Below the pieces are notes generated by a model. That model was not told the origin of the DNA. It ran no database searches and saw nothing but the letters and a program-made list of their open reading frames with translations. Below, piece by piece: positions 4,223 to 30,370 of a stretch of DNA of 35,461 bases. Position 1 is the stretch's first letter. Each line of letters starts with the position of its first letter. The position numbers and the translations under genes are program-made. This stretch comes from Acidobacteriota bacterium (GTDB lineage Bacteria; Acidobacteriota; Blastocatellia; UBA7656), in NCBI GenBank assembly GCA_016201275.1, contig JACQDB010000119.1, forward strand, positions 1-35,461. The letters are read 5' to 3'.

Positions 4223-7099
4223 ATGACTGCTTATCATGCAAAATATTTCGCACATGAAATTACCAAGCGCAGCGCCTCGGACAACATAGCAAAACTAGGG
4301 GCGTCTTTGTTCAACGCCACGGTTGACTTAAACCCGCACCAATTGGACGCCGCCTTATTTGCCTTTCGCTCTCCGCTGTCGCGTGGAGCCATTCTCGCCG
4401 ATGAAGTCGGATTGGGTAAAACCATCGAGGCAGGCATTATCATCAGTCAACTCTGGGCGGAACGTAAACGGCGCATTCTGGTTATCGCGCCAACCATTCT
4501 TCGTAAGCAGTGGGCGCAAGAGTTGGCTGATAAATTTTATCTTCCCGCCTGGGTTGTGGATGCACGCGAATACAAGGCGCGTCAACGCACCGGCGCTCAC
4601 CCTTTTGAAGCGCAAGATAGCGTCATCATCTGCTCGTATAACTTCGCGCAAGCCAAAGAGACGGAGTTGAAGCATACGCGGTGGGACCTTGTGGTAATAG
4701 ACGAAGCCCATCGCTTGCGTAATGTGTACAAATCCGGCAACAAAATTGCCTCTGCCATCAAGCGTTCTATCAATCAAAGACCGACCCTTCTGCTTACCGC
4801 AACGCCTTTGCAAAACAGCTTGCTTGAACTCTACGGTTTGGTCAGTTTTCTCGACGAGCATATCTTTGGCGACAGCAAAGCATTTCGCGCTCGTTATATG
4901 CGCGGCGCAATCGCGCAACGCGAACTTGACGAGTTGCGCCAACGCTTGAAACCGATTTGCCAACGCACCTTGCGCCGACAAGTCAGCGAATATGTGCGCT
5001 TCACCAATCGCATCCCCTTCACTCAAGACTTCACCCCGACCGCCGAAGAACAGCGGCTGTACGATTTGGTTTCCGCTTACTTGCAACGCCAAACCCTCAA
5101 CGCCTTGCCCGCTAGTCAACGCAAATTGATGACCTTGGTGTTACGCAAGCTGCTGGCTTCTTCAACTTTCGCGATTGCCGGAACCTTGCGCGCCTTGGCG
5201 GCAAGATTAAAAACTCAGAGCCGAAAAAACGCTGCGCCAATCGCCGAAACCTTGGCAGAAGATTTTGAAGCGTTTGATGAAATGACCGAAGAGTGGACGG
5301 GCGAAGTCGAAGCGCAGAACCCAGACGATGCGCTCACAGACCTGCAAGCAGAGATTGGCAAAGAGATAAAGGAACTTTCAGACTACGGCGACCTCGCCGC
5401 GTCCATCACCTTCAATGCCAAAGGACAAGCCTTGTTGCAAGCCTTAGAGCAAGGCTTTAGCAAGCTCGAAGAACTTGGCGCGCGTCGCAAGGCGGTTATC
5501 TTTACAGAGTCGCGGCGCACTCAGGAATATCTCTTTAAGCTGCTCAACCATCAAGGCTACGGCGGGCGCGTCATGACCATCAACGGCACCAACACCGATG
5601 AACGCTCTAGCGCAATCTATCGTCAATGGCTTAAACAACACGAAGGCGAGTCAACCATGACCGGCAACAAGACGGTTAATTTGCGCGCCGCCTTGGTCGA
5701 GCATTTCCGCGACGATGCGGAGGTGATGATTGCCACGGAAGCCGCCGCCGAAGGGGTCAATCTGCAATTTTGCTCGCTTGTCGTCAATTACGATTTGCCT
5801 TGGAACCCGCAACGCATAGAGCAACGCATAGGGCGTTGTCATCGCTACGGACAGACTCACGATGTCGTTGTCGTGAACTTTCTCAATCGCAGTAATGCCG
5901 CCGATAAGCGAGTCTTCGAGTTGCTGTCAGAAAAATTTCGACTCTTTGAAGGTGTCTTCGGTTCTTCTGACGAAGTGCTGGGGGCGCTGGAAACGGGCGT
6001 GGATTTCGAGCGCCGCATAGGAGAAATTTATCAATCGTGTCGCACCTCCGCAGAGATTGACCTGGCGTTCGCGCAGTTGCGTCAAGAACTCGAAGACCAG
6101 ATTGCCGCACGCATGACCGATACGCGGGCGGCGCTGTTGGAAAATTTCGATGAAGAAGTCCATCGCCGTCTGCGCCTCAGTTATGAAGACAGTCGCCAAC
6201 ACCTGGATCAAATGGAACGCTGTTTATGGCGTTTGACCAAATACGAACTCACCGAAATTCTCAAGGGCGAGACCCACTTCGATGAGCAACGCTACGAATT
6301 TGATTTGCATGGTTCAGAGATAGACGGTTTAGAGGTGCCAAGCGGGCGTTATCGTTTCGTCCGGCGCTTGCCCCAAGAAGGCGAGGCGCAAGTTTATCGG
6401 CTGGGGCATCCGCTGGCAGAGCATTTGATTGCCAAAGCCGAAAGCCGAACCTTGCCGCCTGCTGAAATAATTTTTGATTACACCAATCACCAAGGCACAG
6501 TGGGCTTGCTCAAATCGCAACAGGGCAAATCCGGCTATCTGACCATCAGCCGTTTGAAGGTGACGGCGCTGGAAGAAGAAGATCGGCTATTGTGCGCCGT
6601 CTTCAACGATGAAGGGCAAACGCTGCATTCCGATTTCGGCGAAAAGCTCTTTTCGATTGACGGACAACTGAGCCGCGAAATTGCCTTGCCGGAGGCTGCC
6701 GCAGAGAGCTTGCAAACCCAGACAGAGGCTTTACAAAAATCTGCTCTGCAAGAGATCAGCGAACGCAACAGTCGCTTTTTTGAAGAAGAGATAGAGAAGC
6801 TCGAACGCTGGGCGGACGATTTAAAACATGGTTTAGAGATGGAACTCAAAGACCTTGACGCACAAATTAAACAAGCGCGACGCGATGCCAAACTGGCTGT
6901 AGAGTTGCAGAGCAAGTTGGAATTTCATCGCCGCATTAAAGAGTTGGAGGCGGCGCGTTCGCGCCAACGCCGCGAACTATACGAAGCCCAAGACGACATT
7001 GACTCGCGCAAAGAAGCATTGATTTCCGGCGTTGAAGCGCACTTGCAACAAAGCGTCGAAACCACTGCTTTATTCACTATCCGCTGGAAACTGATTTAA
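4223..7099 (+). CDS. SNF2-family helicase of a defence island
   Basis: The 958-aa protein is a superfamily 2 ATPase of the SNF2/RapA type. Motif I is DEVGLGKT (60-67), motif II is DEAH (160-163), motif III is in TATPLQN, and motif VI is QRIGRCHRYGQ (534-544). The helicase core is followed by about 370 residues, the last 120 of which are strongly charged and probably coiled coil (EEEIEKLERWADDLK onward). Such enzymes translocate on double-stranded DNA. Related helicases sit beside type III-like mod/res genes (from memory), as here. It is not obviously the DrmD helicase of DISARM, and no DUF1998 or PLD gene is present. AGAGGA lies 5 bases before the ATG. The TAA stop lies within the terminal repeat of the element at 7096-7216. 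It is the first gene of the island. Confidence 0.92.
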   Translation: MTAYHAKYFAHEITKRSASDNIAKLGASLFNATVDLNPHQLDAALFAFRSPLSRGAILADEVGLGKTIEAGIIISQLWAERKRRILVIAPTILRKQWAQELADKFYLPAWVVDAREYKARQRTGAHPFEAQDSVIICSYNFAQAKETELKHTRWDLVVIDEAHRLRNVYKSGNKIASAIKRSINQRPTLLLTATPLQNSLLELYGLVSFLDEHIFGDSKAFRARYMRGAIAQRELDELRQRLKPICQRTLRRQVSEYVRFTNRIPFTQDFTPTAEEQRLYDLVSAYLQRQTLNALPASQRKLMTLVLRKLLASSTFAIAGTLRALAARLKTQSRKNAAPIAETLAEDFEAFDEMTEEWTGEVEAQNPDDALTDLQAEIGKEIKELSDYGDLAASITFNAKGQALLQALEQGFSKLEELGARRKAVIFTESRRTQEYLFKLLNHQGYGGRVMTINGTNTDERSSAIYRQWLKQHEGESTMTGNKTVNLRAALVEHFRDDAEVMIATEAAAEGVNLQFCSLVVNYDLPWNPQRIEQRIGRCHRYGQTHDVVVVNFLNRSNAADKRVFELLSEKFRLFEGVFGSSDEVLGALETGVDFERRIGEIYQSCRTSAEIDLAFAQLRQELEDQIAARMTDTRAALLENFDEEVHRRLRLSYEDSRQHLDQMERCLWRLTKYELTEILKGETHFDEQRYEFDLHGSEIDGLEVPSGRYRFVRRLPQEGEAQVYRLGHPLAEHLIAKAESRTLPPAEIIFDYTNHQGTVGLLKSQQGKSGYLTISRLKVTALEEEDRLLCAVFNDEGQTLHSDFGEKLFSIDGQLSREIALPEAAAESLQTQTEALQKSALQEISERNSRFFEEEIEKLERWADDLKHGLEMELKDLDAQIKQARRDAKLAVELQSKLEFHRRIKELEAARSRQRRELYEAQDDIDSRKEALISGVEAHLQQSVETTALFTIRWKLI

Positions 7100-7216
7100 G
7101 GGAAGCGGAAAGAAATATCATCTCTGTTGAGAAGCGGTCTTTGACCGCGAGACTGGCGGTCAGAGACCGCTTCTCAACGGCAATTATGGGATTATATTTT
7201 CTTTCCCTTCCCTAAG
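7096..7216. repeat. MITE-like family C element, full copy, between defence genes
   Basis: The outer arms TTAAGGGAAGCGGAAAG and CTTTCCCTTCCCTAA are near-complementary terminal inverted repeats. Inside, GTTGAGAAGCGGTCT faces AGACCGCTTCTCAAC (7126-7178, perfect 15-bp arms), and between these TGACCGC faces GCGGTCA. A half copy lies at 16898-16970. The element contains the stop codon of the SNF2 gene (7097-7099) and separates it from the 67-aa gene. The predicted cruciform could attenuate transcription or protect mRNA ends. Confidence 0.8.
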
Positions 7217-7235
7217 AAACTAGGAGGCTGACGCA

Positions 7236-7439
7236 ATGTCTGATGATTTGTCCTTATCGCCGAATGAAAAATTAGCCGCACTCATTGTTGAAAAACTGCT
7301 GGAGCAAAAATTGATTCCGCAGAAACGCGCCGCAGAAATTAAACATCGCCTAGCGGAAGGCACAGCCAAAGCGGAAGATTGGCGCAACTGGATAGAGCTG
7401 GCGCTGCCGCAAGCGGCGCAGGAGTCCGACCATGAATAA
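7236..7439 (+). CDS. Small conserved-looking protein of the defence operon (unknown)
   Basis: This is a 67-aa acidic protein that looks helical (NEKLAALIVEKLLEQKLIPQ, then RAAEIKHRLAEG). I do not recognise a family. It has a strong ribosome binding site, AGGAGG, about 9 bases before the ATG, and it overlaps the next ATPase gene by 8 nt, which suggests translational coupling and a stoichiometric partner role. A small subunit or regulator of the SMC-like ATPase is the simplest inference. It has no membrane segment and no Cys. Confidence 0.75.
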   Translation: MSDDLSLSPNEKLAALIVEKLLEQKLIPQKRAAEIKHRLAEGTAKAEDWRNWIELALPQAAQESDHE

Positions 7440-9768
7440 GCGTATTGAAAAATTGGTGCTGCATAAATTTCGCGGCGCGACGACAAAAACGATTCTGGAG
7501 TTTGACAGCAAAAAGCCTATGGCTTTAATCTTCGGCGAAAACGGCACAGGCAAATCCAGCATCATTGACGCCATTGATTTTCTCTTCAACAAATCAGGCG
7601 GCTCAATCAAAACGCGCAGTTCGACGGATGAGAAAAAACATCTCGCCTCGATTGGCAATAAAGCTAAAGATTTTGCCGTAGAATTGACTTATGGAAGTGA
7701 CCAATGGGTTGGCGTACATACCGGCAAAGAGATTGTTATCAACGGCAATTCATCGCTTCCTCAAGCTTTCATTCTAAGGCGCAGCCAGTTATTACGATTG
7801 GTCGAAGCCAGCCCCGCAGATAGTTACAAAGAGTTGCGCCGCTTCATAGACGTTCAAAACGTCGAAGACAGCGAACAGGCATTACGCAATGCTTTCAATG
7901 AAGCCAAGAGTCGTTTGAACTCGTGGACAGGACAAAAAGTTGAAGCAGATGCAGCTTTGCATGAACTTTGGCAGGGCGAAGGCTCTCCCAACAATACCGA
8001 GATAGATTGGGCATCTGAAAAAAAACGAGCCGATACGCAAAAACTACAAGCATCACTGTCTGAAACCCTAACCATACTACAGCAATTTGCGGCGGCGCTG
8101 ATGCAACAGAATAACTATCAAACGGCTCAACAAACTTTGCGGAGCAAGACACAGGAGTGGACTCAACTGCAAAATCAAATCTCTGCTGGTTCGCAAACCC
8201 AGGAAGCAAATCGCAAGCTCGTGCAGATGCTCAAGCAAGTCGAAAGCTATCTTGCAGCGCCTCTCGACAAAGACCATTGTCCTACTTGCCTTTCTACATA
8301 CCAGGTGGATAAGTTGCGCCGCGAAGTCGCAACACGCATAGCCGATATGACCGTGGCAGATGAAGTGAACGCAAAATTTGCCGACGCCGAAAAAGCCACG
8401 CAAAACGCCCATGCGGTCGTCGAACAATCGCGCAAGAATTTTACACAGGCGGCGCAGACCTGCACTTTATCGCTGCAAAAGTCTAAATTGCCGGAGATCG
8501 ACAAAGCAAAAATAGATTGGACGACTTACAGTCAACTTTTGAGCGGCGACACCCAACTGCAGGCTACAGAAGCCGAACGCTTATTGAGCGATACCAATTT
8601 GCTCCGCCTACAGTTGGAAAAGTTGAAAGCGCAAATGCAGAAGGACTTGAGCCAGCACAAAGCCATCACACAAGCGTATGAGCGCGTCGTCAATGCTGGA
8701 CAACAAGCCACCGAACAAGACTTGGTCACGCAAAAACTGAAACAGGTTCTGGACGTGGTTCACGACATCCGTATAGCTTTTACCGATCAGGTGCTGGAGG
8801 CTGTGAAAAATGAATGCAGCCGTCTCTATTCGCGCCTACACCCGGACGAACCATACACCCTCACTAGGCTTTTTCTAAATTTGAAGACCAAAGGCTCGCT
8901 TCATCTAGCGGCGCATTTCGACGGTTACGACGAGGTTTCGCCGCAAGCCTATTTCAGTGAGTCTCACCTCGACACGCTTGGATTTTGTTTATGGCTTGCC
9001 ATAGCCAAATTATCGAGCAACGGAAATGCGTTGGTGGTTTTGGACGATGCTTTCACCTCCGTTGACGCGCAACATATTGACCGCATCATTGACCTGCTTA
9101 CGGATGAATCTGATTCTTTTAATCAAATCATTATCACGACACACTCGCGCCGTTGGCTTGATAAATATCGCAATAGTGATAAACCAAAGAACAAAACGTA
9201 TGTATTGGAGTTATTGCGATGGCAACGCATGACAGGCATTTGCGCGATGGAAAGCAAACTGGAGGTCGCGGAACTCAGAGAAAAACTTAATCCTTTCCAA
9301 AAGTTGGACCGTCAGGCGGTCTGTTCTCAAGCGGGCGTGTTGTTAGAGCGCGCTCTGGATCATCTGGCTAAGTTATACGGCTGCCGTATGGCGAGGAACC
9401 GGGACAACGCCTATACTTTGAAACCGTTGTGTGACGCGACCAAAGAGTTGTTCAAAAAAATCAAAATCAAACGCTTACGAAAAGACGCTTCGGGAGTCAT
9501 CATTGAGCCGAATAATTACGAGCCGTCTTTGCAGCCTTTGTGGCAAAAGATCAGCGACCATGTGATTGTTCGCAATCAAGTTGGAGCGCATTTCAATGCC
9601 AATGCCGTCGAATACAGCGATGCCGACATTGAGGATTTTGGACACTACGCGGTTGATATAGTTTCAGGGTTGGTTTGCCATACCTGCGATTCTCTGGCGC
9701 AAACCAACAAAGGAGCGTACTTTGCCTGCGGCTGTGGAATGTTGCGGATGGAGCCTTATAAAATTTGA
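7432..9768 (+). CDS. SMC/Rad50-like ATPase with zinc hook and HEPN-like C-terminal domain
   Basis: The 778-aa protein has an N-terminal ABC half-domain with Walker A GENGTGKSS (35-43), then a coiled coil with a zinc-hook CPTC (C283, C286), a second coiled coil, a signature-like SESHLDTLGFC, and Walker B VVLDDAFTSVD (D538, D539). After the ATPase head comes an extra domain of about 170 residues. It contains RNQVGAH (R714 to H720), matching the RX4-6H signature of HEPN nucleases, and ends in Cys pairs C749/C752 and C766/C768 that look like a zinc ribbon. The layout recalls RloC, where a zinc-hook ATPase controls an anticodon nuclease next to a type I R-M system. The nuclease assignment is inference from one motif. 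The usual PrrC/RloC catalytic triad was not recognised. Confidence 0.88.
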   Translation: MNKRIEKLVLHKFRGATTKTILEFDSKKPMALIFGENGTGKSSIIDAIDFLFNKSGGSIKTRSSTDEKKHLASIGNKAKDFAVELTYGSDQWVGVHTGKEIVINGNSSLPQAFILRRSQLLRLVEASPADSYKELRRFIDVQNVEDSEQALRNAFNEAKSRLNSWTGQKVEADAALHELWQGEGSPNNTEIDWASEKKRADTQKLQASLSETLTILQQFAAALMQQNNYQTAQQTLRSKTQEWTQLQNQISAGSQTQEANRKLVQMLKQVESYLAAPLDKDHCPTCLSTYQVDKLRREVATRIADMTVADEVNAKFADAEKATQNAHAVVEQSRKNFTQAAQTCTLSLQKSKLPEIDKAKIDWTTYSQLLSGDTQLQATEAERLLSDTNLLRLQLEKLKAQMQKDLSQHKAITQAYERVVNAGQQATEQDLVTQKLKQVLDVVHDIRIAFTDQVLEAVKNECSRLYSRLHPDEPYTLTRLFLNLKTKGSLHLAAHFDGYDEVSPQAYFSESHLDTLGFCLWLAIAKLSSNGNALVVLDDAFTSVDAQHIDRIIDLLTDESDSFNQIIITTHSRRWLDKYRNSDKPKNKTYVLELLRWQRMTGICAMESKLEVAELREKLNPFQKLDRQAVCSQAGVLLERALDHLAKLYGCRMARNRDNAYTLKPLCDATKELFKKIKIKRLRKDASGVIIEPNNYEPSLQPLWQKISDHVIVRNQVGAHFNANAVEYSDADIEDFGHYAVDIVSGLVCHTCDSLAQTNKGAYFACGCGMLRMEPYKI

Positions 9769-9789
9769 AAGCCGTTTATGAGTATCTCT

Positions 9790-9885
9790 ATGAGCAAACC
9801 AACGAAGCTGGAATTGACTTGGATAGACAAAGAGCGGCATTCGCCGTTCCCATCCTTTCGCGTCTTTGGCGAGCATCGTTTATAA
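9790..9885 (+). pseudogene. Duplicated 5' end of the mod gene (remnant)
   Basis: The sequence from ATG 9790 repeats the start of mod at 10631 almost base for base for about 45 nt; both encode MSKPTKLELTWI. It then diverges and stops at TAA after 31 codons. The two copies differ at some silent and some coding positions, so the duplication is not brand new. The toxin-antitoxin pair lies between the copies, which suggests that mod once began here and that its start was duplicated or rebuilt when the pair was inserted. Confidence 0.7.
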
Positions 9886-9886
9886 T
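9881..9886 (+). promoter_or_regulatory. Candidate -10 box for the toxin-antitoxin pair
   Basis: A perfect TATAAT lies 19 bases before the antitoxin ATG. A matching -35 box is weak (TTTCGC at 9856-9861, 19-nt spacer). Its own promoter would fit an independently acquired module. Confidence 0.4.
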
Positions 9887-9905
9887 CGGATTTTGGAGAA
9901 AAGCC

Positions 9906-10136
9906 ATGCAAGACATCCAAGAGATTTACACAACAACTATCGCGTCTTTGCCGTCGGAAGCGAGATTGAGGCTGGCAGCATTGATAATAAATAGACTAGC
10001 CGAATCGCAAACCTCATCCGCGCCGCGCCAATCCGTGCGACAGATGGTTAAGAGAATGCCTAAGCAAAGACTCTTCCAAACTGCCGCCGAAGTTGATGAC
10101 TACCTGAAAGAGGAGCGCGAATCTTGGGAACATTGA
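9906..10136 (+). CDS. Antitoxin partner of a PIN toxin
   Basis: The 76-aa protein begins with a helical segment (SLPSEARLRLAALIINRLAE) and ends with RLFQTAAEVDDYLKEERESW, a tail seen in small antitoxins that precede PIN-domain toxins (from memory). Its C-terminus would thread into the toxin active site. I chose ATG 9906 because GGAGA precedes it by about 6 bases and the frame further upstream lies in the mod remnant. It overlaps the toxin start by 13 nt. It should repress the operon and neutralise the toxin. Confidence 0.78.
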   Translation: MQDIQEIYTTTIASLPSEARLRLAALIINRLAESQTSSAPRQSVRQMVKRMPKQRLFQTAAEVDDYLKEERESWEH

Positions 10137-10561
10137 GCTTGCCTTCTCAAGGGCTGATTTATATTGATACCGCACCGCTGATTTACAGCGTTGAACAACA
10201 TCCCGATTATGGCAATTTGCTTGCGCCTTTGTGGGAGGCGTCAGAAGCGGGTCAAATTCAGGTGGTTGCCAGCCAATTGCTTTTACTGGAAGTTCTGACC
10301 GGCGTGTTGAAACGCAACGACGCAGAGTTGCTGTCTGACTATGAACGTGTGTTGACGGCTTCCGAATTAAATCTTGTTCCGATTAGCGCGTCTATCTTAC
10401 GCGAAGCGGCTCACCTTCGCGCCACAATGAATTTAAAAACACCGGATGCCATACACGCGGCGACAGCTTTGACCGTCGGATGCGTACAATTTATTACCAA
10501 CGACTTTGAGTTTCGCCGCCTATCACAATTGAATGTGGTCATACTCAAAGAACTGATCTGA
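10124..10561 (+). CDS. PIN-domain ribonuclease toxin, VapC-like
   Basis: The 145-aa protein has the four acidic positions of a PIN nuclease: D15 in IYIDTAP, E56 in LLLLEVLTG, D108 in KTPDAIHAATA and D127 in FITNDFEF. PIN toxins are Mg2+-dependent RNases that block translation. The likely start is TTG 10124, with GAGGAG about 9 bases upstream, inside the antitoxin gene; an in-frame ATG is absent from the N-terminal region. The pair sits between the SMC-like ATPase and mod, which is an unusual place and points to insertion into the R-M operon. The target RNA cannot be told. Confidence 0.9.
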   Translation: MGTLSLPSQGLIYIDTAPLIYSVEQHPDYGNLLAPLWEASEAGQIQVVASQLLLLEVLTGVLKRNDAELLSDYERVLTASELNLVPISASILREAAHLRATMNLKTPDAIHAATALTVGCVQFITNDFEFRRLSQLNVVILKELI

Positions 10562-10630
10562 AACAACCGATTTAATGCGCTCGAAATTTCCATACATAGT
10601 TTTGCGTGTTGAACAAATAATCGAAGAACG

Positions 10631-12347
10631 ATGAGCAAACCAACGAAACTGGAATTGACTTGGATAGGCAAGGACAAGCGCCCGCGACTTGAGCCGCGCA
10701 TCTTGCTCGAAGACGAAGCACTATCGTATCACGCGGCGCATCGCGTCAGTGAACATGACAGCTTCGACAATCGCTTGATACACGGCGATAATTTGCTGGC
10801 ATTGAAGTCTTTGGAACAGAGCTTGCAGGGGGGGGGTCAAATGTATCTACATTGATCCGCCTTACAACACCGGCTCGGCTTTCACACATTACGACGACGG
10901 CATAGAGCATTCGCTGTGGCTTTCGTTGATGCGTGACCGCTTGGAAATCCTCAGATCACTACTCACCCCTGACGGCTCCCTCTGGATTACGATTGATGAT
11001 AACGAAGCACACTATTTGAAAGTGCTGTGCGATGAAGTTTTCGGCAGGGCAAATTTCGTTGCGAACGTTATTTGGCAAAAAAAATCTTCTCCCTCAAATG
11101 ATGCAAAATGGATTTCTGATAATCATGACCATATTCTCGTCTATGCAAAAAATAAAGAATTTTGGAGACCAACAAAATTAGAAAGAACAGATGAGCAAAA
11201 CCGTATCTATAGACACTCTGATGAATATGATGGAGTGGGTGAAGACGGAAAAATATATGGACGCGGCCCTTGGTTTCCCGGTGATATGACAGTCAAAACG
11301 ATAAGTGAAAATGCCTTATATGAAATTATTACCCCTTCAGGAAGAGTCGTTAAACCTACAGACGGGCGAGCTTGGGTTTATTCCAAAGGAAAATTTGATG
11401 AGTTGTTAAAAGATAAGCGAATAACCTTTGGGAAAAATAAGGACAATAAGCCTTGTATAAAAAGATTTTTGACAGAAGTTGAAAATTCTAAAATAGTGCC
11501 TAAATCTGTTTGGCTCTATGAAGAAGTTGGTGAAAATCGAAACGCTCGACAAGAAGTTAAAAAATTTAATTCTATAAATCCTTTCGGCACACCTAAACCG
11601 GAACGATTACTTCAACGCATTATTCATCTCGCAACACAGCCCGGCGACATTGTGCTTGATTCGTTTGCCGGTTCGGGAACGACCGGAGCCGTCGCGCACA
11701 AAATGAATCGGCGTTGGGTGATGATTGAACTCGGCGAACATTGCCACACCCACATCATCCCGCGTCTCAAAAAAGTCATTGACGGCACAGACGAGGGCGG
11801 CATCTCGAAAGCCGTCAACTGGCAAGGCGGCGGCGGCTTTCGCTACTATCGTCTAGCGCCATCGTTGCTTGAACGCGACAAGTGGGGCAACTGGATTATC
11901 AATAAATCCTACAACGCCGCGATGCTTGCCGAAGCCGTCTGCAAACACGAAGGCTTTACTTACGCGCCTTCTGAAACCCTTTACTGGCAACAAGGGCATT
12001 CTTCCGAACGCGATTTCATTTATGTCACCACGCAAACCTTGAACCGTGAACAACTCGCCGCACTCGCCGAAGAGGTGGGCGATGATCGCTCGCTCCTCGT
12101 CTGTTGCAGCGCCTTCAAAGCCCAACCTGACGCCTTCCCAAATCTGACTTTGAAGAAAATCCCTAACACCGTTTTGCATCGCTGCGAATGGGGACGCGAC
12201 GATTACAGTTTGCAGATTGCTAACTTGCCACTCGCGCCGGTCGTTGAAGAAACGGCGCAAGCGCCAAGGGCTTCGTCCGCAACAAAACTAAAGCGCGCAA
12301 AGGAAATGTCCATGCCGCTCTTTGAACAAGGAGACGAACGCGAATGA
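10631..12347 (+). CDS. mod: Type III-like DNA methyltransferase (mod), frameshifted at a G9 tract
   Basis: Two overlapping frames make one gene. The first, from ATG 10631, gives the usual start (MSKPTKLELTWIGK, then RLIHGDNLLALKSL) and crosses a G9 run at 10828-10836 into TGA at 10853. The next frame reads VKCIYIDPPYNTGSAF and continues to 12347. One G fewer joins them into about 571 aa. The motif order is DPPY (motif IV), target recognition region, then DSFAGSGTTGAVA (AdoMet-binding motif I). This is the beta order of type III Mod adenine methyltransferases (N6_N4_Mtase family). The middle part (about 11060-11600) is AT-rich compared with its flanks. It overlaps res by 4 nt. The shift may be phase variation or a homopolymer sequencing error. 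Confidence 0.9.
10828..10836 (+). repeat. G9 homopolymer, possible phase-variation switch
   Basis: Nine consecutive G lie just upstream of the catalytic DPPYN codons of mod. With 8 (or 11) G the full frame is open; with 9 it ends 5 codons after the tract. Contingency poly-G tracts of this length are known from phase-variable genes in other bacteria. Confidence 0.65.
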
Positions 12348-15085
12348 ATCGCCACATCAACGCCATCAGTGGGCGGCTTTCGTTACGCCCGCCACAACGT
12401 CAATCCTTAGAAATCCTCTCGCACATAACCGAAATTCTGCCGCTTGAAAAAGGCGCAGATAGTGCAGAATCTTTGCGCCTTATCAATGCGGAATATCCAA
12501 CGGTTACGGACTTCGAGCGCGACTTCCCTTCGCTGTGTTTTGCGCTGGCAACCGGCGTAGGCAAGACGCGCTTGATGGGCGCCTTCATCGCCTATTTGCA
12601 TCTGGCAAAAGGCATCAGACATTTCTTTGTGCTGGCACCGAATTTGACTATCTATAACAAGCTGATTGCCGATTTTACGCCCAACCATCCCAAGTACGTT
12701 TTGCAAGGCATAGCCGAATTCGCGCAGGAGCCGCCGGAAATTATCACCGGCGACAATTATGAATCGGGGCGCGGCGTAAGAGAGCGAGACTTGTTTGGCG
12801 AACGCGGCATTCACATCAATGTTTTCAACATCTCGAAGATCAATTCCGAAACTCGCGGCGGACGCGAGCCGCGCATCAAGCGGCTTTCGGAATACATAGG
12901 GCAAAGCTATTTCGATTATCTGGCGGAACTCAATGACTTGGTTTTATTGATGGATGAATCGCATCGTTATCGCGCCTCTGCGGGAGTTCGCGCCATCAAC
13001 GAATTGAAACCTATTCTCGGATTGGAATTGACCGCCACGCCGCAAATCGAAGCAGGCAGCAAACCCCTTGCGTTTAAGAATGTCATTTACAGCTATGCAC
13101 TTTCACAGGCTCTGAGCGATGGTTTTGTCAAAGAGCCTGCGGTTGCCACTAGAGAAAATTTCGACCCCAAAAATTACACGGCAGAACAACTTGAAGAATT
13201 AAAAATCGCCGATGGCGTAAGGATTCACGAAAGCACCAAGGTCGAGCTTGAGACCTTTGCAAAACAGCATGACTTGCTGATTGTGAAGCCCTTTATGTTG
13301 ATAGTGGCGCGTGACACAGAACACGCCAACGCCCTGATGACGCAAATCAAGAGCGCTGATTTTTTTGCCGGACACTATAAAGAGCGCGTCATTACAGTGC
13401 ATTCAAATCAACGCGGTGAAGAGGCTGACGAAACCGTTGCGCGTTTGCTGGCGGTTGAAAAGACCGACGAGCCTACGGAGATTGTCATTCACGTCAATAT
13501 GTTGAAAGAGGGTTGGGACGTGACCAACCTCTACACCATTGTGCCACTGCGCGCCGCTAATTCACGCACCTTGGTCGAGCAATCCATAGGGCGCGGCTTG
13601 CGTCTGCCTTACGGACGACGGGTAGGCGTTTCGGCGGTTGACCGTTTGACCATTGTGGCGCACGACAAGTTTCAAGAGATCGTTGACGAAGCCAATAAAC
13701 CCGATTCGGTCATCCGCCTAGTCCCTGTTTATATAGGGCGCGATGTCGCGCAAGAACAGAAAAAATCTGTCACCGTAGAGCCAACCATCATCGCTGCTTT
13801 GACCAGTCAACTCAAGGCGACAGAGTTACAGAGTGCGCCACCAGCTCAAAGCCTTGACGGAGTTGAGGTAATGCCACAAGGGCAAAGCAAGGTGCCGCAA
13901 CTTGTGCAACAACCGATGCGCTTCGATAATCTTGAAGAGCAGCAAATCGCCAGAGTCACGCTGGAAACGATTCGCAAATTTGAGCGATTGCCGCGCTCTG
14001 CTGATTTGCAGAAGCCTGAAATCCAAGCCGAAATCGTCCGCGCCGTCGCACAAGCTTACATCCCTGTAGCGCAAAACGCGCTGCCCGGATTGGCAAGCCA
14101 ACCAAACATCGAGCGCCTTGTAGCGCAGACCACCGAACTCTTTATTGAGCTCTCCATTGATATTCCAAAAATCGTCGTCACCCCGAAAGGCGAAGTGGCA
14201 TACGGCTACAACGATTTCGATTTAGACACCAGCGGCATCAGCTTGCAACCTGTGGCGATGGATATACTGATTCAACATCTGCATAGCAATGAACGCGAAA
14301 TGCTGGCAAGCAAGAGCCTCGCGCAAGAGACGCGCTTGGAAGATTACATCGTCCGCGCCTTGATTGATTATGACGACATTTCGTATGACGACCATGCAGA
14401 TATGCTCTACAAATTGGCAGGGCAATTGACGGCGCACCTGCGCTCTTATTTGCCGGATGAAGAGGCGCTCACCAATGTCTTGCAATATCATCAACAACGT
14501 CTGGCGGCAGCCGTACACGCGCAGATGCAAGCCCAGCAATGGCAAGGCGCGACCGACTACGCGGTGAATGTCACACGCGGCTTTACGAGCTTGCGCTCAA
14601 ACAGTTATTCCGTTGGCGTTGGCGAAGGCGTGAGAGATTTCCGCGCTCCCGTCAGTGAGCGGCAGAACATCCGCAGTATGCACTTTGGCGGCTTTCGGCG
14701 TTGCCTCTATCCTGTACAGAAATTTGATTCGGATTCAGAGCGACGTTTTGCGGTGATTCTGGAAGATGCTTCGGAAGTCTTGAAATGGTTTAAACCGACA
14801 CGCGGACAGTTACAGATTTACTACACCAGAGATCATTTATATGAGCCGGATTTTGTCGTTGAAACAGCGACGGCAAAACTTTTGTGCGAGCCGAAACGCG
14901 CTTCGGAGATAGAAGACGAGGAGGTGAAAGCGAAAGCGCGCGCGGCTATCGCGTGGTGCCGCCAAGCAACTGAACATGAACTCGCGCATGGTGGAAAGTC
15001 TTGGCACTATTTACTCATCCCGCATGATGCGATGCTCTCGAATATGACAATAGGCGGCTTGATCGCAACCTATAATTTATCGTAA
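12344..15085 (+). CDS. res: Type III-like restriction subunit (Res): SF2 helicase plus PD-(D/E)xK nuclease
   Basis: The 913-aa protein starts with a ResIII/DEAD-type helicase: motif I ATGVGKTR (69-76), motif II DESH (204-207), TATPQ, and a C-terminal helicase lobe with HVNMLKEGWDVTN and EQSIGRGLRLPYGRR. Near the C-terminus, PDFVVE..LLCEPK supplies D836, E849 and K851, a PD-(D/E)xK endonuclease site. Res forms a complex with Mod, uses ATP to signal between two sites and cuts DNA near unmodified sequences. It depends on Mod for target recognition, so in the present mod-off state it should be inactive as a restriction enzyme. ATG 12344 overlaps the mod stop (ATGA), indicating translational coupling. 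All motifs look intact. Confidence 0.93.
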   Translation: MNRHINAISGRLSLRPPQRQSLEILSHITEILPLEKGADSAESLRLINAEYPTVTDFERDFPSLCFALATGVGKTRLMGAFIAYLHLAKGIRHFFVLAPNLTIYNKLIADFTPNHPKYVLQGIAEFAQEPPEIITGDNYESGRGVRERDLFGERGIHINVFNISKINSETRGGREPRIKRLSEYIGQSYFDYLAELNDLVLLMDESHRYRASAGVRAINELKPILGLELTATPQIEAGSKPLAFKNVIYSYALSQALSDGFVKEPAVATRENFDPKNYTAEQLEELKIADGVRIHESTKVELETFAKQHDLLIVKPFMLIVARDTEHANALMTQIKSADFFAGHYKERVITVHSNQRGEEADETVARLLAVEKTDEPTEIVIHVNMLKEGWDVTNLYTIVPLRAANSRTLVEQSIGRGLRLPYGRRVGVSAVDRLTIVAHDKFQEIVDEANKPDSVIRLVPVYIGRDVAQEQKKSVTVEPTIIAALTSQLKATELQSAPPAQSLDGVEVMPQGQSKVPQLVQQPMRFDNLEEQQIARVTLETIRKFERLPRSADLQKPEIQAEIVRAVAQAYIPVAQNALPGLASQPNIERLVAQTTELFIELSIDIPKIVVTPKGEVAYGYNDFDLDTSGISLQPVAMDILIQHLHSNEREMLASKSLAQETRLEDYIVRALIDYDDISYDDHADMLYKLAGQLTAHLRSYLPDEEALTNVLQYHQQRLAAAVHAQMQAQQWQGATDYAVNVTRGFTSLRSNSYSVGVGEGVRDFRAPVSERQNIRSMHFGGFRRCLYPVQKFDSDSERRFAVILEDASEVLKWFKPTRGQLQIYYTRDHLYEPDFVVETATAKLLCEPKRASEIEDEEVKAKARAAIAWCRQATEHELAHGGKSWHYLLIPHDAMLSNMTIGGLIATYNLS

Positions 15086-26437: not shown

Positions 26438-26563
26438 CGCGCTGTGCCTCATCTCCGCTTCATGGTCGAGCCGTGCCCCGCAGTTGCCAACCGTTGGCTT
26501 GCGCTGGTGGCGCGACGCTACATTGACGGATGGAGTTTACAGAGTAGAGAATGGATTGAGCCA

Positions 26564-27820
26564 ATGCGACAGACGAAACCTCTACACACACCATTGACCA
26601 AAGGGCTTTTCAGGATTGTGGTTCTACTGCTGACGAGTGGTGTTTTGCCGTCGTCTTCATTGCCAGCCATTGCCCGCCTTGACCAAGCCAAAAAATCGCA
26701 AACCGTCGGACGACCAAGCACCAAAGCCCGACGCCCAGCCCCTTCGACAGCGGTAGCCGAAGCCGGAGCGGTTTCTCATTCCCCTCTCGCCTTGCCGTTC
26801 AAGCGTGCATGGTTTTATGCCGACGACATCACGACGCTGGCAACGACAGCGGATGAAGCGCGCATTTACTTGCCGCTGGTCGCCGGTCGCGTCGTCTGTC
26901 TGGAACGCGAAACTGGCGCACGGGTGTGGTTAAGCGAACCCGGCGGCGTTATCTGCGCCCCCGTAGCGATTGGCGATAAGGTGGTTTATATCGCCTCGCG
27001 CAAACTCGCCGAAGACGGCAGCGAAGCGGGCGCTGCACTGCGCGCCGTGGATAAAATCACCGGCCTGACGTTGTGGGCGAAAGATTATCCCAGAGCCTTT
27101 ACCTCGCCGTTGACGGTGACGAAAGAGCGCCTCTATGCGGGCTGTGCCGATGGCGCGCTCTATGCTCTGTCCTCAACCGATGGCGAAATTTTATGGCAGG
27201 CCGCAACGCAGGATGTCATTTACGGCGGCGTCTTGATTACGGAAAACGCCATCTATTTCGGCAGCGATGACGGCGCTTTGCGCGGCGTCGAAGTGGACAA
27301 AGGCCGAGAGCTGTGGAAGTTTCAAACTGCTGGTCATATTCGCGCCGCGCCGGTTGCCGATGACCATGATTTTTATTTCGGCTCAAGCGACGGTTACTTC
27401 TATGCGGTTAATCAAGTGAGCGGTAAAGTGAAATGGAAAAGCCGCGCCGGAGCGGCGATTGCCGCTGTGCCGGTTATCGTCGGCGATAAAATTTTGGTCG
27501 CCTCGTTCGACAATTTCATCTATGCGCTGGCGCGTTCGACCGGCAACAAGATATGGAAACGGCGGCTGGAAAATCGCCTCACCGCCGCGCCGCTTGTTGA
27601 AGGCGATGCCTTGATGATTGCGCCCATACGCGGCGACCACGTTGCTGTTTTTCTGCTCGCCGATGGTCGGCGCGTCAATTTTTATCGCCTCGATAAAGCG
27701 CTGGAAATTGTCTCTGCGCCGGTCTTCACCGACAACTTGTTGTTGTTGGCCACGGACAAAGGCTTGCTGGCGGCGCGCAACGAAGCGCCCCGTTCCGCGC
27801 CCCCCACAGACAAACCTTAA
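26564..27820 (+). CDS. Secreted PQQ-type beta-propeller protein
   Basis: The protein is about 418 aa from ATG 26564. A basic start and hydrophobic segment (GLFRIVVLLLTSGVLPSSSL) form a likely signal peptide. The rest is a PQQ_2/BamB-like propeller with repeated blade motifs: GARVWLSEPGG, GLTLWAKDYP, GEILWQAATQDV, GRELWKFQTAGH, GKVKWKSRAGA and GNKIWKRRLENR. No PQQ-binding dehydrogenase residues are evident, so it is more likely a scaffold or binding protein of the periplasm than an enzyme. Upstream in-frame starts would add 40 residues that do not look like a signal peptide. It follows the transporter by 126 bases. Confidence 0.87.
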   Translation: MRQTKPLHTPLTKGLFRIVVLLLTSGVLPSSSLPAIARLDQAKKSQTVGRPSTKARRPAPSTAVAEAGAVSHSPLALPFKRAWFYADDITTLATTADEARIYLPLVAGRVVCLERETGARVWLSEPGGVICAPVAIGDKVVYIASRKLAEDGSEAGAALRAVDKITGLTLWAKDYPRAFTSPLTVTKERLYAGCADGALYALSSTDGEILWQAATQDVIYGGVLITENAIYFGSDDGALRGVEVDKGRELWKFQTAGHIRAAPVADDHDFYFGSSDGYFYAVNQVSGKVKWKSRAGAAIAAVPVIVGDKILVASFDNFIYALARSTGNKIWKRRLENRLTAAPLVEGDALMIAPIRGDHVAVFLLADGRRVNFYRLDKALEIVSAPVFTDNLLLLATDKGLLAARNEAPRSAPPTDKP

Positions 27821-28572: not shown

Positions 28573-29097
28573 ATGAAGAAAATCATATTTTCCTTATTTG
28601 CTCTGATTCTGGCTGTCTTTTTGACCGCTTGTTCTCATTCGGAACAAAAGCCGACAGCGCAAGCTGCGCCCAGCGACAATCCAAATGTTGTTAAAGCGGA
28701 CGGCGGCGTCGTAGGCATGATTCCGCAGTCACCAACCGCCAATTCACCGGCGGTGGTGATGCCGTCTGCGCCCGTGGATATGAGCAAAGCGCCGCATATC
28801 GAATTGCCTGTGCAGAAGATGGATTTTGGCGTGGTCAAAGAGGACAAAAAAATCGCCAAAACATTCACCGTAAAAAATGTCGGCAAAACGCCGCTCAATA
28901 TCGTCTCCGTAACCCCTAGCTGAGGCTGCACCACGGTGGACTTTCCCAAAGTCCTACAGCCTGGTCAGGCTGGCAAAATCAAAATCAAAGTGGATACCGG
29001 CAAAGGCGCAGGGCAACGCACCAAAACCGTCACCATCAACTCGGACGACCCGCAACAGCAATCCGTCATCTTTGAATTTTCGTTTACGGTGAAATAA
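28573..29097 (+). CDS. DUF1573 lipoprotein with in-frame TGA at a conserved Cys
   Basis: The frame has 174 codons with one internal TGA at 28921-28923 (codon 117). The N-terminus is a lipoprotein signal (AVFLTAC, lipobox Cys about 20), followed by a disordered spacer and a DUF1573 domain: FGVVKEDKKIAKTFTVKNVG, PLNIVSVTPS, then after the TGA GCTTVDFPKVLQPGQ and later TVTINSDDP, ending at TAA 29095-29097. In the family, TPS is normally followed by CGCT, so TGA stands exactly where the first Cys belongs, and the downstream frame is intact. It could be read as selenocysteine, or be a single-base nonsense change (TGC or TGT to TGA), or a sequencing error. The molecular role of DUF1573 proteins is unknown. 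Confidence 0.85.
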
Positions 29098-29164: not shown

Positions 29165-30370
29165 GTGACTGATTATGATGAGATGCTGTCCACGGTGGGG
29201 CGTCATTTGCGGCCTAATGAAATTCGCAAACTGACCTCGCTGCTCGGTCGCGGCGAGGTGATTTCGTTTGCCGCCGGAGCGCCGAGCGCCGAAACTTTTC
29301 CCCTCGCAGAGTTGACGGAAATCGCCGCCCGTGTGGTGCGCGAGCATGGCAAATTCGCTTTGCAGTACGGCCCTACGAAAGGCTCCAGCACGTTGATTGA
29401 TAGCGTGGTCTCGACGATGCAAAAGCGCGGCGTGCATAGCAGTGCTGCGGCTATCATTCTGACCACAGGGTCGCAGCAGGGGCTGGATTTAGTCTCGCGT
29501 TTGTTGATGAACGCAGGGGACGTGGCGCTGGTCGAATTGCCGAGTTACGTTGGCGGCACGATTGCGCTGCACAACGCGCAAGCACGTCTGATAGGCGTTC
29601 GGCAAGATCAAGGCGGCCTTGTGCTTGCGGATTTGCGCGATAAACTCGAAGCGGCGCAAGCCGCAGGGCAGCGCGTGAAATGCCTCTACACGATTCCCAA
29701 TTTTCAGAATCCTTCGGGCGTGTCGCTGGCTTTGGAGCGCCGCGCCGAGATAGTACGATTGGCTGAAGCGTTCGATTTTCTGATCCTCGAAGATGATCCG
29801 TATTTCGAGTTGTACTTTGACGAAGACCGCGCACAGCGCACTCCGCTTGCGGCCTTGAATCCCGAACGGGTGATTTATCTGAGCAGTTTTTCCAAAGTGC
29901 TGGCACCAGGGCTGCGTACCGCCTGGGTGCAGGCTCCGCCCGCGCTGGCCGCGAAACTGGAATTGCTGAAAGAAGGCGCAGACCTGTCTTCGAGCGTCTT
30001 CGATCAGGCCATCGTGGCGTTAGCGGTGCGCGAAGGTCTGGTTGAAAATCGTCTGCCGATGATACGCGAGTTTTACCGTGTGCGGCGGGAAGCGATGTTG
30101 ACGGCGCTTGAGCAGCACGCACCGCCCAATGCGCGCTGGACAAAACCGACCGGCGGATTTTTTCTGTGGATGGAAGTCGCCAAAGAGATAGACGCGAAGA
30201 AACTGTTACCCACAGCCATAGAGAGCGGCGTCGCCTATGTTCCCGGCCAACCGTTTTTTGTCGATGACAGCGGCGCGAACACTTTGCGTTTGGCCTATTC
30301 CAAAGAGACTCCCGAAGCCATCGCCACAGGCATAGCGCGTTTGTGCAGCCTGCTCCATTCAGCAGCATGA
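29165..30370 (+). CDS. PLP-dependent aminotransferase, class I/II (LysN/MocR-like)
   Basis: The 401-aa enzyme is a fold-type I PLP aminotransferase. Recognisable parts are the N-terminal ISFAAGAPSAETFP, LQYGPTKGSSTLID, TTGSQQGLDLV, the PLP-contact NPSG (182-185), EDDPYFELYF, and the Schiff-base lysine K244 in SSFSKVLAPGLRTAW. Similar enzymes act as 2-aminoadipate or other amino acid transaminases; the substrate is not clear. The GTG start at 29165 has AAGGA about 9 bases upstream. There is no N-terminal GntR domain, so it is not a MocR regulator. It lies 67 bases after the DUF1573 gene and is convergent with the DUF4384 gene. Confidence 0.92.
   Translation: MTDYDEMLSTVGRHLRPNEIRKLTSLLGRGEVISFAAGAPSAETFPLAELTEIAARVVREHGKFALQYGPTKGSSTLIDSVVSTMQKRGVHSSAAAIILTTGSQQGLDLVSRLLMNAGDVALVELPSYVGGTIALHNAQARLIGVRQDQGGLVLADLRDKLEAAQAAGQRVKCLYTIPNFQNPSGVSLALERRAEIVRLAEAFDFLILEDDPYFELYFDEDRAQRTPLAALNPERVIYLSSFSKVLAPGLRTAWVQAPPALAAKLELLKEGADLSSSVFDQAIVALAVREGLVENRLPMIREFYRVRREAMLTALEQHAPPNARWTKPTGGFFLWMEVAKEIDAKKLLPTAIESGVAYVPGQPFFVDDSGANTLRLAYSKETPEAIATGIARLCSLLHSAA

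Follow-up and report, generated by a model that had tools for sequence, protein, structure and literature searches.

The DUF1573 lipoprotein gene and its neighbors

The gene considered here lies in the window (the whole 35,461-nucleotide stretch analyzed) and runs in one frame from ATG to TAA, with a single in-frame TGA at codon 117 (Table 1). Its translation reads MKKIIFSLFALILAVFLTAC...VTPS-U-GCTTVDFPKV...FTVK*, where U marks the TGA. The product scores 77.5 bits (E 8e-22) against Pfam PF07610, well over the gathering cut-off of 26.1 that defines membership of DUF1573. Lipobox rules are established, and they are the basis on which the LTAC signal peptide with Cys20 points to a lipoprotein. 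The aminotransferase that follows does not suggest a redox role.

Table 1. Features of the lipoprotein gene and its immediate neighbors in the window.
Feature	Positions	Strand	Basis
BamB/PQQ-like beta-propeller	26444-27820	+	Pfam PF13360; neighbor gene in the same five genomes with a short Sec lipoprotein
DUF1573 lipoprotein CDS	28573-29097	+	174 residues with Sec117, stop TAA; Pfam PF07610; orthologs read through TGA
Lipoprotein signal peptide (predicted), lipobox LTAC (Cys20)	28573-28632	+	read from the translation
UGA, almost certainly read as selenocysteine (U of the U-G-C motif)	28921-28923	+	28 genes have TGA here; 27 homologous sequences have Cys (TGC/TGT)
Cys119 (TGC), putative resolving Cys of the U-G-C motif	28927-28929	+	C119 invariant in alignments A3 and A4
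HP1, proposed spacer hairpin, 7 bp, CCC loop	28938-28954	+	covariation; RNAalifold; synonymous shuffles, z 5.2
HP2, probable SelB-binding hairpin, 6 bp, GGUC loop at 28963-28966	28957-28972	+	compensatory changes; RNAalifold; z 8.2
PLP-dependent fold-type I aminotransferase	29165-30370	+	Pfam PF00155; next gene downstream in 5/5 genomes with a short Sec lipoprotein

Elsewhere in the window, positions 4223-15085 hold a phage-defense island composed of a DrmD-like SNF2 helicase (707 bits), an AAA ATPase, a type III methyltransferase (548 bits), and a type III restriction enzyme (810 bits). The methyltransferase ORF matches its profile only from position 99, so its N-terminal part may be encoded further upstream or have been lost.

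Probable selenocysteine at codon 117

The first-pass annotation of this stretch had proposed a selenoprotein, noting that the reading frame is kept on both sides of the TGA and that the TGA stands at the first Cys of a CGC motif. Both observations hold: the DUF1573 match covers both sides of the TGA, homologs have Cys at this codon, and downstream of it the differences are biased toward third codon positions. Against relative G002 they number 7, 9, and 24 at codon positions 1, 2, and 3, and similarly, in the five closest orthologs this part of the gene varies mainly at third positions.

The annotation had suggested looking for relatives that share the TGA at this codon, and these do exist. When 195 related genomes were searched with the window protein read through the TGA, 28 DUF1573 genes (27 distinct sequences) in 23 genomes of the phylum had TGA at exactly the position of codon 117. 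Other DUF1573 copies carry TGC or TGT there (27 Cys homologous sequences), and in some genomes the Sec and Cys forms lie side by side (G019 contig 24, G041 contig 153). A tree of 52 domains has up to eight Sec/Cys changes, of which at least two are forced by well-supported branches. This shows that DUF1573 selenoproteins are common in the phylum and have been exchanged repeatedly with Cys forms.

The genome, which is 98.7% complete, also encodes the full machinery for selenocysteine: SelB (364 bits, cut-off 242), SelA (540 bits), SelD (356 bits), and tRNA-Sec (selC; 66 bits), for which ARAGORN calls the anticodon UCA. All four genes that the annotation had named for a search were thus found. 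The SelD gene (L076) itself has an in-frame TGA, in the motif SCAGUAAKL, as do the SelD genes of most relatives. Whether selB goes together with Sec genes across the relatives was uninformative, because almost all of them carry selB.

One might instead take the TGA as a true stop, whether in a pseudogene, through a sequencing error, or as the end of a truncated product of 116 residues; after all, TGA is the ordinary terminator of other genes in the window, for example, that at 7432-9768. However, a base error is implausible because the same TGA is common to independent genomes. Together with the coding constraint downstream and the Sec/Cys exchange, the shared TGA therefore makes error, pseudogene, and plain truncation very unlikely. 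The complete machinery and an RNA structure specific to the Sec genes (below) tell against the same reading, to which we give almost no credence. With TGA aligned to a conserved Cys, TGA-bearing relatives, and SelA, SelB, tRNA-Sec, and SelD all encoded, the proposed selenoprotein is upheld, and judging from these comparisons the in-frame TGA of the lipoprotein gene almost certainly encodes selenocysteine.

Two hairpins downstream of the UGA

The annotation had also described a stem, GGACTTT/CCC/AAAGTCC, starting 14 bases after the TGA at the usual SECIS distance. This stem is present as described (HP1), its loop lying 21 nt after the UGA. The lower stem GGCTG/CAGCC that went with it did not survive comparison: it is not conserved, and 283/500 shuffles pair equally well. 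As for the G reported missing from the loop, the CCC loop of HP1 does lack it; a second hairpin directly downstream (HP2) had been overlooked, and the doubt is resolved because its GGUC loop carries the G. A scan of the window against Rfam gave no match.

Folding the region as a single sequence gives ambiguous results (z -1.7 to -1.9 for 43-60 nt), with alternative pairings of the 60-nt region often competing with HP1 and HP2, and for that reason we turned to comparative tests. Two tandem hairpins downstream of the TGA are common to the Sec members. In 27 distinct Sec sequences, 85% of HP1 and 81% of HP2 helix cells are paired, versus 39% and 42% in 27 Cys homologs, a set that is partly from Bacteroidota, although same-phylum Cys sequences also fail to pair. 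Unguided, RNAalifold predicts the same two hairpins. Counted on the fixed structure, 18 cells are changed on both sides versus 3.6 in shuffles (0/500 as high), and sliding the partners of the helices abolishes this covariation. At pair 18-34 of HP1 both sides have changed in 6 of the 22 closest Sec sequences, and HP2 has compensatory changes at three pairs. Distant members L029, L064, and L066 rebuild both hairpins from other bases or in a shifted register; a few members (L065, L147, L152) have only a weak HP1.

Since the conserved codons D-F-x-K-V underlie HP1, we ran 300 synonymous-codon shuffles of these 22 sequences. Pairing was 92% for HP1 (78% expected, z 5.2) and 96% for HP2 (68% expected, z 8.2), and none of the 300 shuffles reached the observed pairing and stability of the Sec set. 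Part of the HP1 pairing does follow from the protein sequence, given the overlap with these codons. It is important to remember that the window sequence is by itself only moderately remarkable, its pairing being equaled by 82/20,000 synonymous shuffles and its folding energy reached by 108/1000.

A covariance model of the two-hairpin element, built from 22 sequences, recovers its source genes and a further set in 7/7 genomes of the bacterium's own family. Its three good matches in this genome are all Sec DUF1573-type genes, and those ranking below them do not rise above chance. Alongside the window gene there is a second, longer UGC DUF1573 selenoprotein gene (L053; contig 43, 49880-49936, + strand). 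The third Sec gene (L146; contig 73, 62690-62746, - strand) has the frame APYT-U-C-SKNFVFDKVIQPGQAG, and its counterparts in relatives read APS-U-C...DFYFDKV, with Sec followed directly by Cys. This UC subfamily (L146-L152), present in 7/7 family genomes, consists of DUF1573-like genes of roughly 400 residues with an in-frame TGA and the same two-hairpin signal; it is not in the selenoprotein catalogs searched. In 6/7 UC genes HP2 lies 3 nt further on, and in four of these six HP1 is enlarged to 21-23 nt, while the other two (L147, L152) have a weak HP1. The copy in this genome has an 8-bp HP1 made from other bases.

Weak model matches in other genomes (L153, L154, L155) proved on inspection not to be Sec genes. 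Three Cys copies, at L033:1651-1707 (+), L062:1963-2019 (-), and L030:1591-1647 (-), still reach 31-37 bits when scored by the SECIS model; these signals are possibly the decayed remains of recent Sec-to-Cys changes.

Which of the two hairpins would SelB bind? The bacterial SECIS (bSECIS) model places the apical loop 16-37 nt from the UGA (PMC13188914). The HP2 loop lies outside this range in 34/34 Sec sequences, at 38-44 nt, the value for the window being 39 nt. If the nucleotides of HP1 are subtracted, the distance is 19-22 nt in 28/34 and about 20-22 nt in the window. In energy, HP2 alone (-7.7 kcal/mol) and the 43-nt region (-14.6) both fall below the bSECIS limit of -7.5 kcal/mol MFE. Of the 34 HP2 loops, 29 are GGUC or GGUA. 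The automatic scan demanded a G in the loop; that of the window is clear when read in a fixed register. The loop of Escherichia coli fdhF is also GGUC.

A rival assignment keeps the selenoprotein but takes HP1, or an alternative fold of the whole region, as the SECIS and HP2 as incidental: HP1 is the hairpin at the usual distance, and some members have a G in its loop (GAT, GAC). Many members, however, including the window, have an HP1 loop without G (CCC, CCU, UCC, ACC), whereas the HP2 loop is near-constant and matches the SelD SECIS loops of the phylum. HP2 also stands further above the synonymous shuffles than HP1. We thus regard this assignment as improbable, and HP1 as genuine but probably not the SelB-binding hairpin.

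Most simply, HP2 would be the hairpin bound by SelB, and HP1 would take up the surplus distance. A compound SECIS within the coding region would direct the recoding of UGA 28921. In it, 17 nt of spacer would be folded into HP1, which would bring the GGUC loop of HP2, some 39 nt off in sequence, to the canonical ~20-22 nt from the UGA, and SelB with tRNA-Sec would decode the UGA as selenocysteine.

Putative function and comparison with known systems

In the AlphaFold model the domain is Ig-like with seven strands, pLDDT exceeds 90 from around residue 80 onward, and U117-G118-C119 is placed with high confidence in a turn between strands 108-115 and 120-123. In this turn, Sec117 and Cys119 would most likely form a reversible selenenylsulfide and serve as a thiol/selenol redox center in the periplasm or at the outer membrane.

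Metal binding would be equally compatible with a CxC-like motif on an Ig-like fold, and the neighboring genes include no evident redox partner, so that one may think of a metal-binding (copper-like) or structural lipoprotein with Sec as a ligand rather than a redox catalyst. The UC variant, however, retains both residues, and redox centers are typically marked by Sec/Cys exchange next to a resolving Cys. We find the ligand role unlikely, if less so than HP1 as the SECIS. Taken together, an exported one-domain DUF1573 lipoprotein, whose UGA 28921 is read as Sec by means of a compound HP1 and HP2 SECIS and whose Sec117/Cys119 act as a redox center, is in our judgment a highly probable account.

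Among solved folds, the nearest found by Foldseek include the HYDIN PapD-like domain 2e6j and Porphyromonas 2qsv, and the window protein also matches Pfam PF22544 (HYDIN/CFA65/VesB Ig-like). The DUF1573 domain shares its fold with these Ig-like (ASH, PapD-like) domains; sequence identity is only 18-21% over the aligned part.

The window protein is a member of an already known selenoprotein family, OS_HP2 (PF07610, NF041425), which was reportedly first described in 2007 from a worm symbiont, as cited in reviews. It shares the domain, the U-G-C motif, and the Sec position of that family, but is a short lipoprotein of 174 residues that scores 81.8 bits with NCBIfam NF041425 (OS_HP2_seleno), under the curated cut-off of 100 for membership; 12/12 aligned relatives match the same model at E 1e-5 or better. 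DUF1573 with the motif UGC has already been cataloged as a selenoprotein (PMC9312934, PMC13188914).

The new part is the RNA signal, an unusual two-hairpin layout just beyond the reach of the standard bacterial model. No description of a two-hairpin SECIS or of the UC subfamily was found in the literature searched, which excluded the 2007 first description. We lean toward a separate class of bacterial SECIS, one whose conserved spacer hairpin would let SelB use an otherwise too distant GGU-loop hairpin, serving DUF1573-type selenoproteins including the previously unlisted vicinal Sec-Cys subfamily. A fixed distance window in SECIS models lies behind most selenoprotein gene discovery so far, and some selenoprotein genes fail such a model, with not every case explained (PMC13188914). 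A hairpin-shortened SECIS offers a concrete, testable reason for such failures, and the two-hairpin search model has already yielded extra Sec genes here. The Sec/Cys exchange in this case affects a surface lipoprotein whose chemistry is putative.

With the bSECIS consensus (PMC13188914), HP2 shares a small apical loop starting GG/GU, a stem of 4-16 bp, and a position within the coding region; the window element differs in its 38-44 nt to the loop and in the extra conserved hairpin in between. The Sec-containing SelD genes of the phylum would use the same machinery, and several have a GGUC loop as in HP2. The clearest of them, however, have just one hairpin, whose GGUC-type loop lies at the canonical spacing, roughly 26 nt past the UGA. 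In the SelD gene of this genome the loop is GUU, 33 nt from the UGA, and only a weak 4-bp stem comes before it. The DUF1573 genes, by contrast, have two hairpins.
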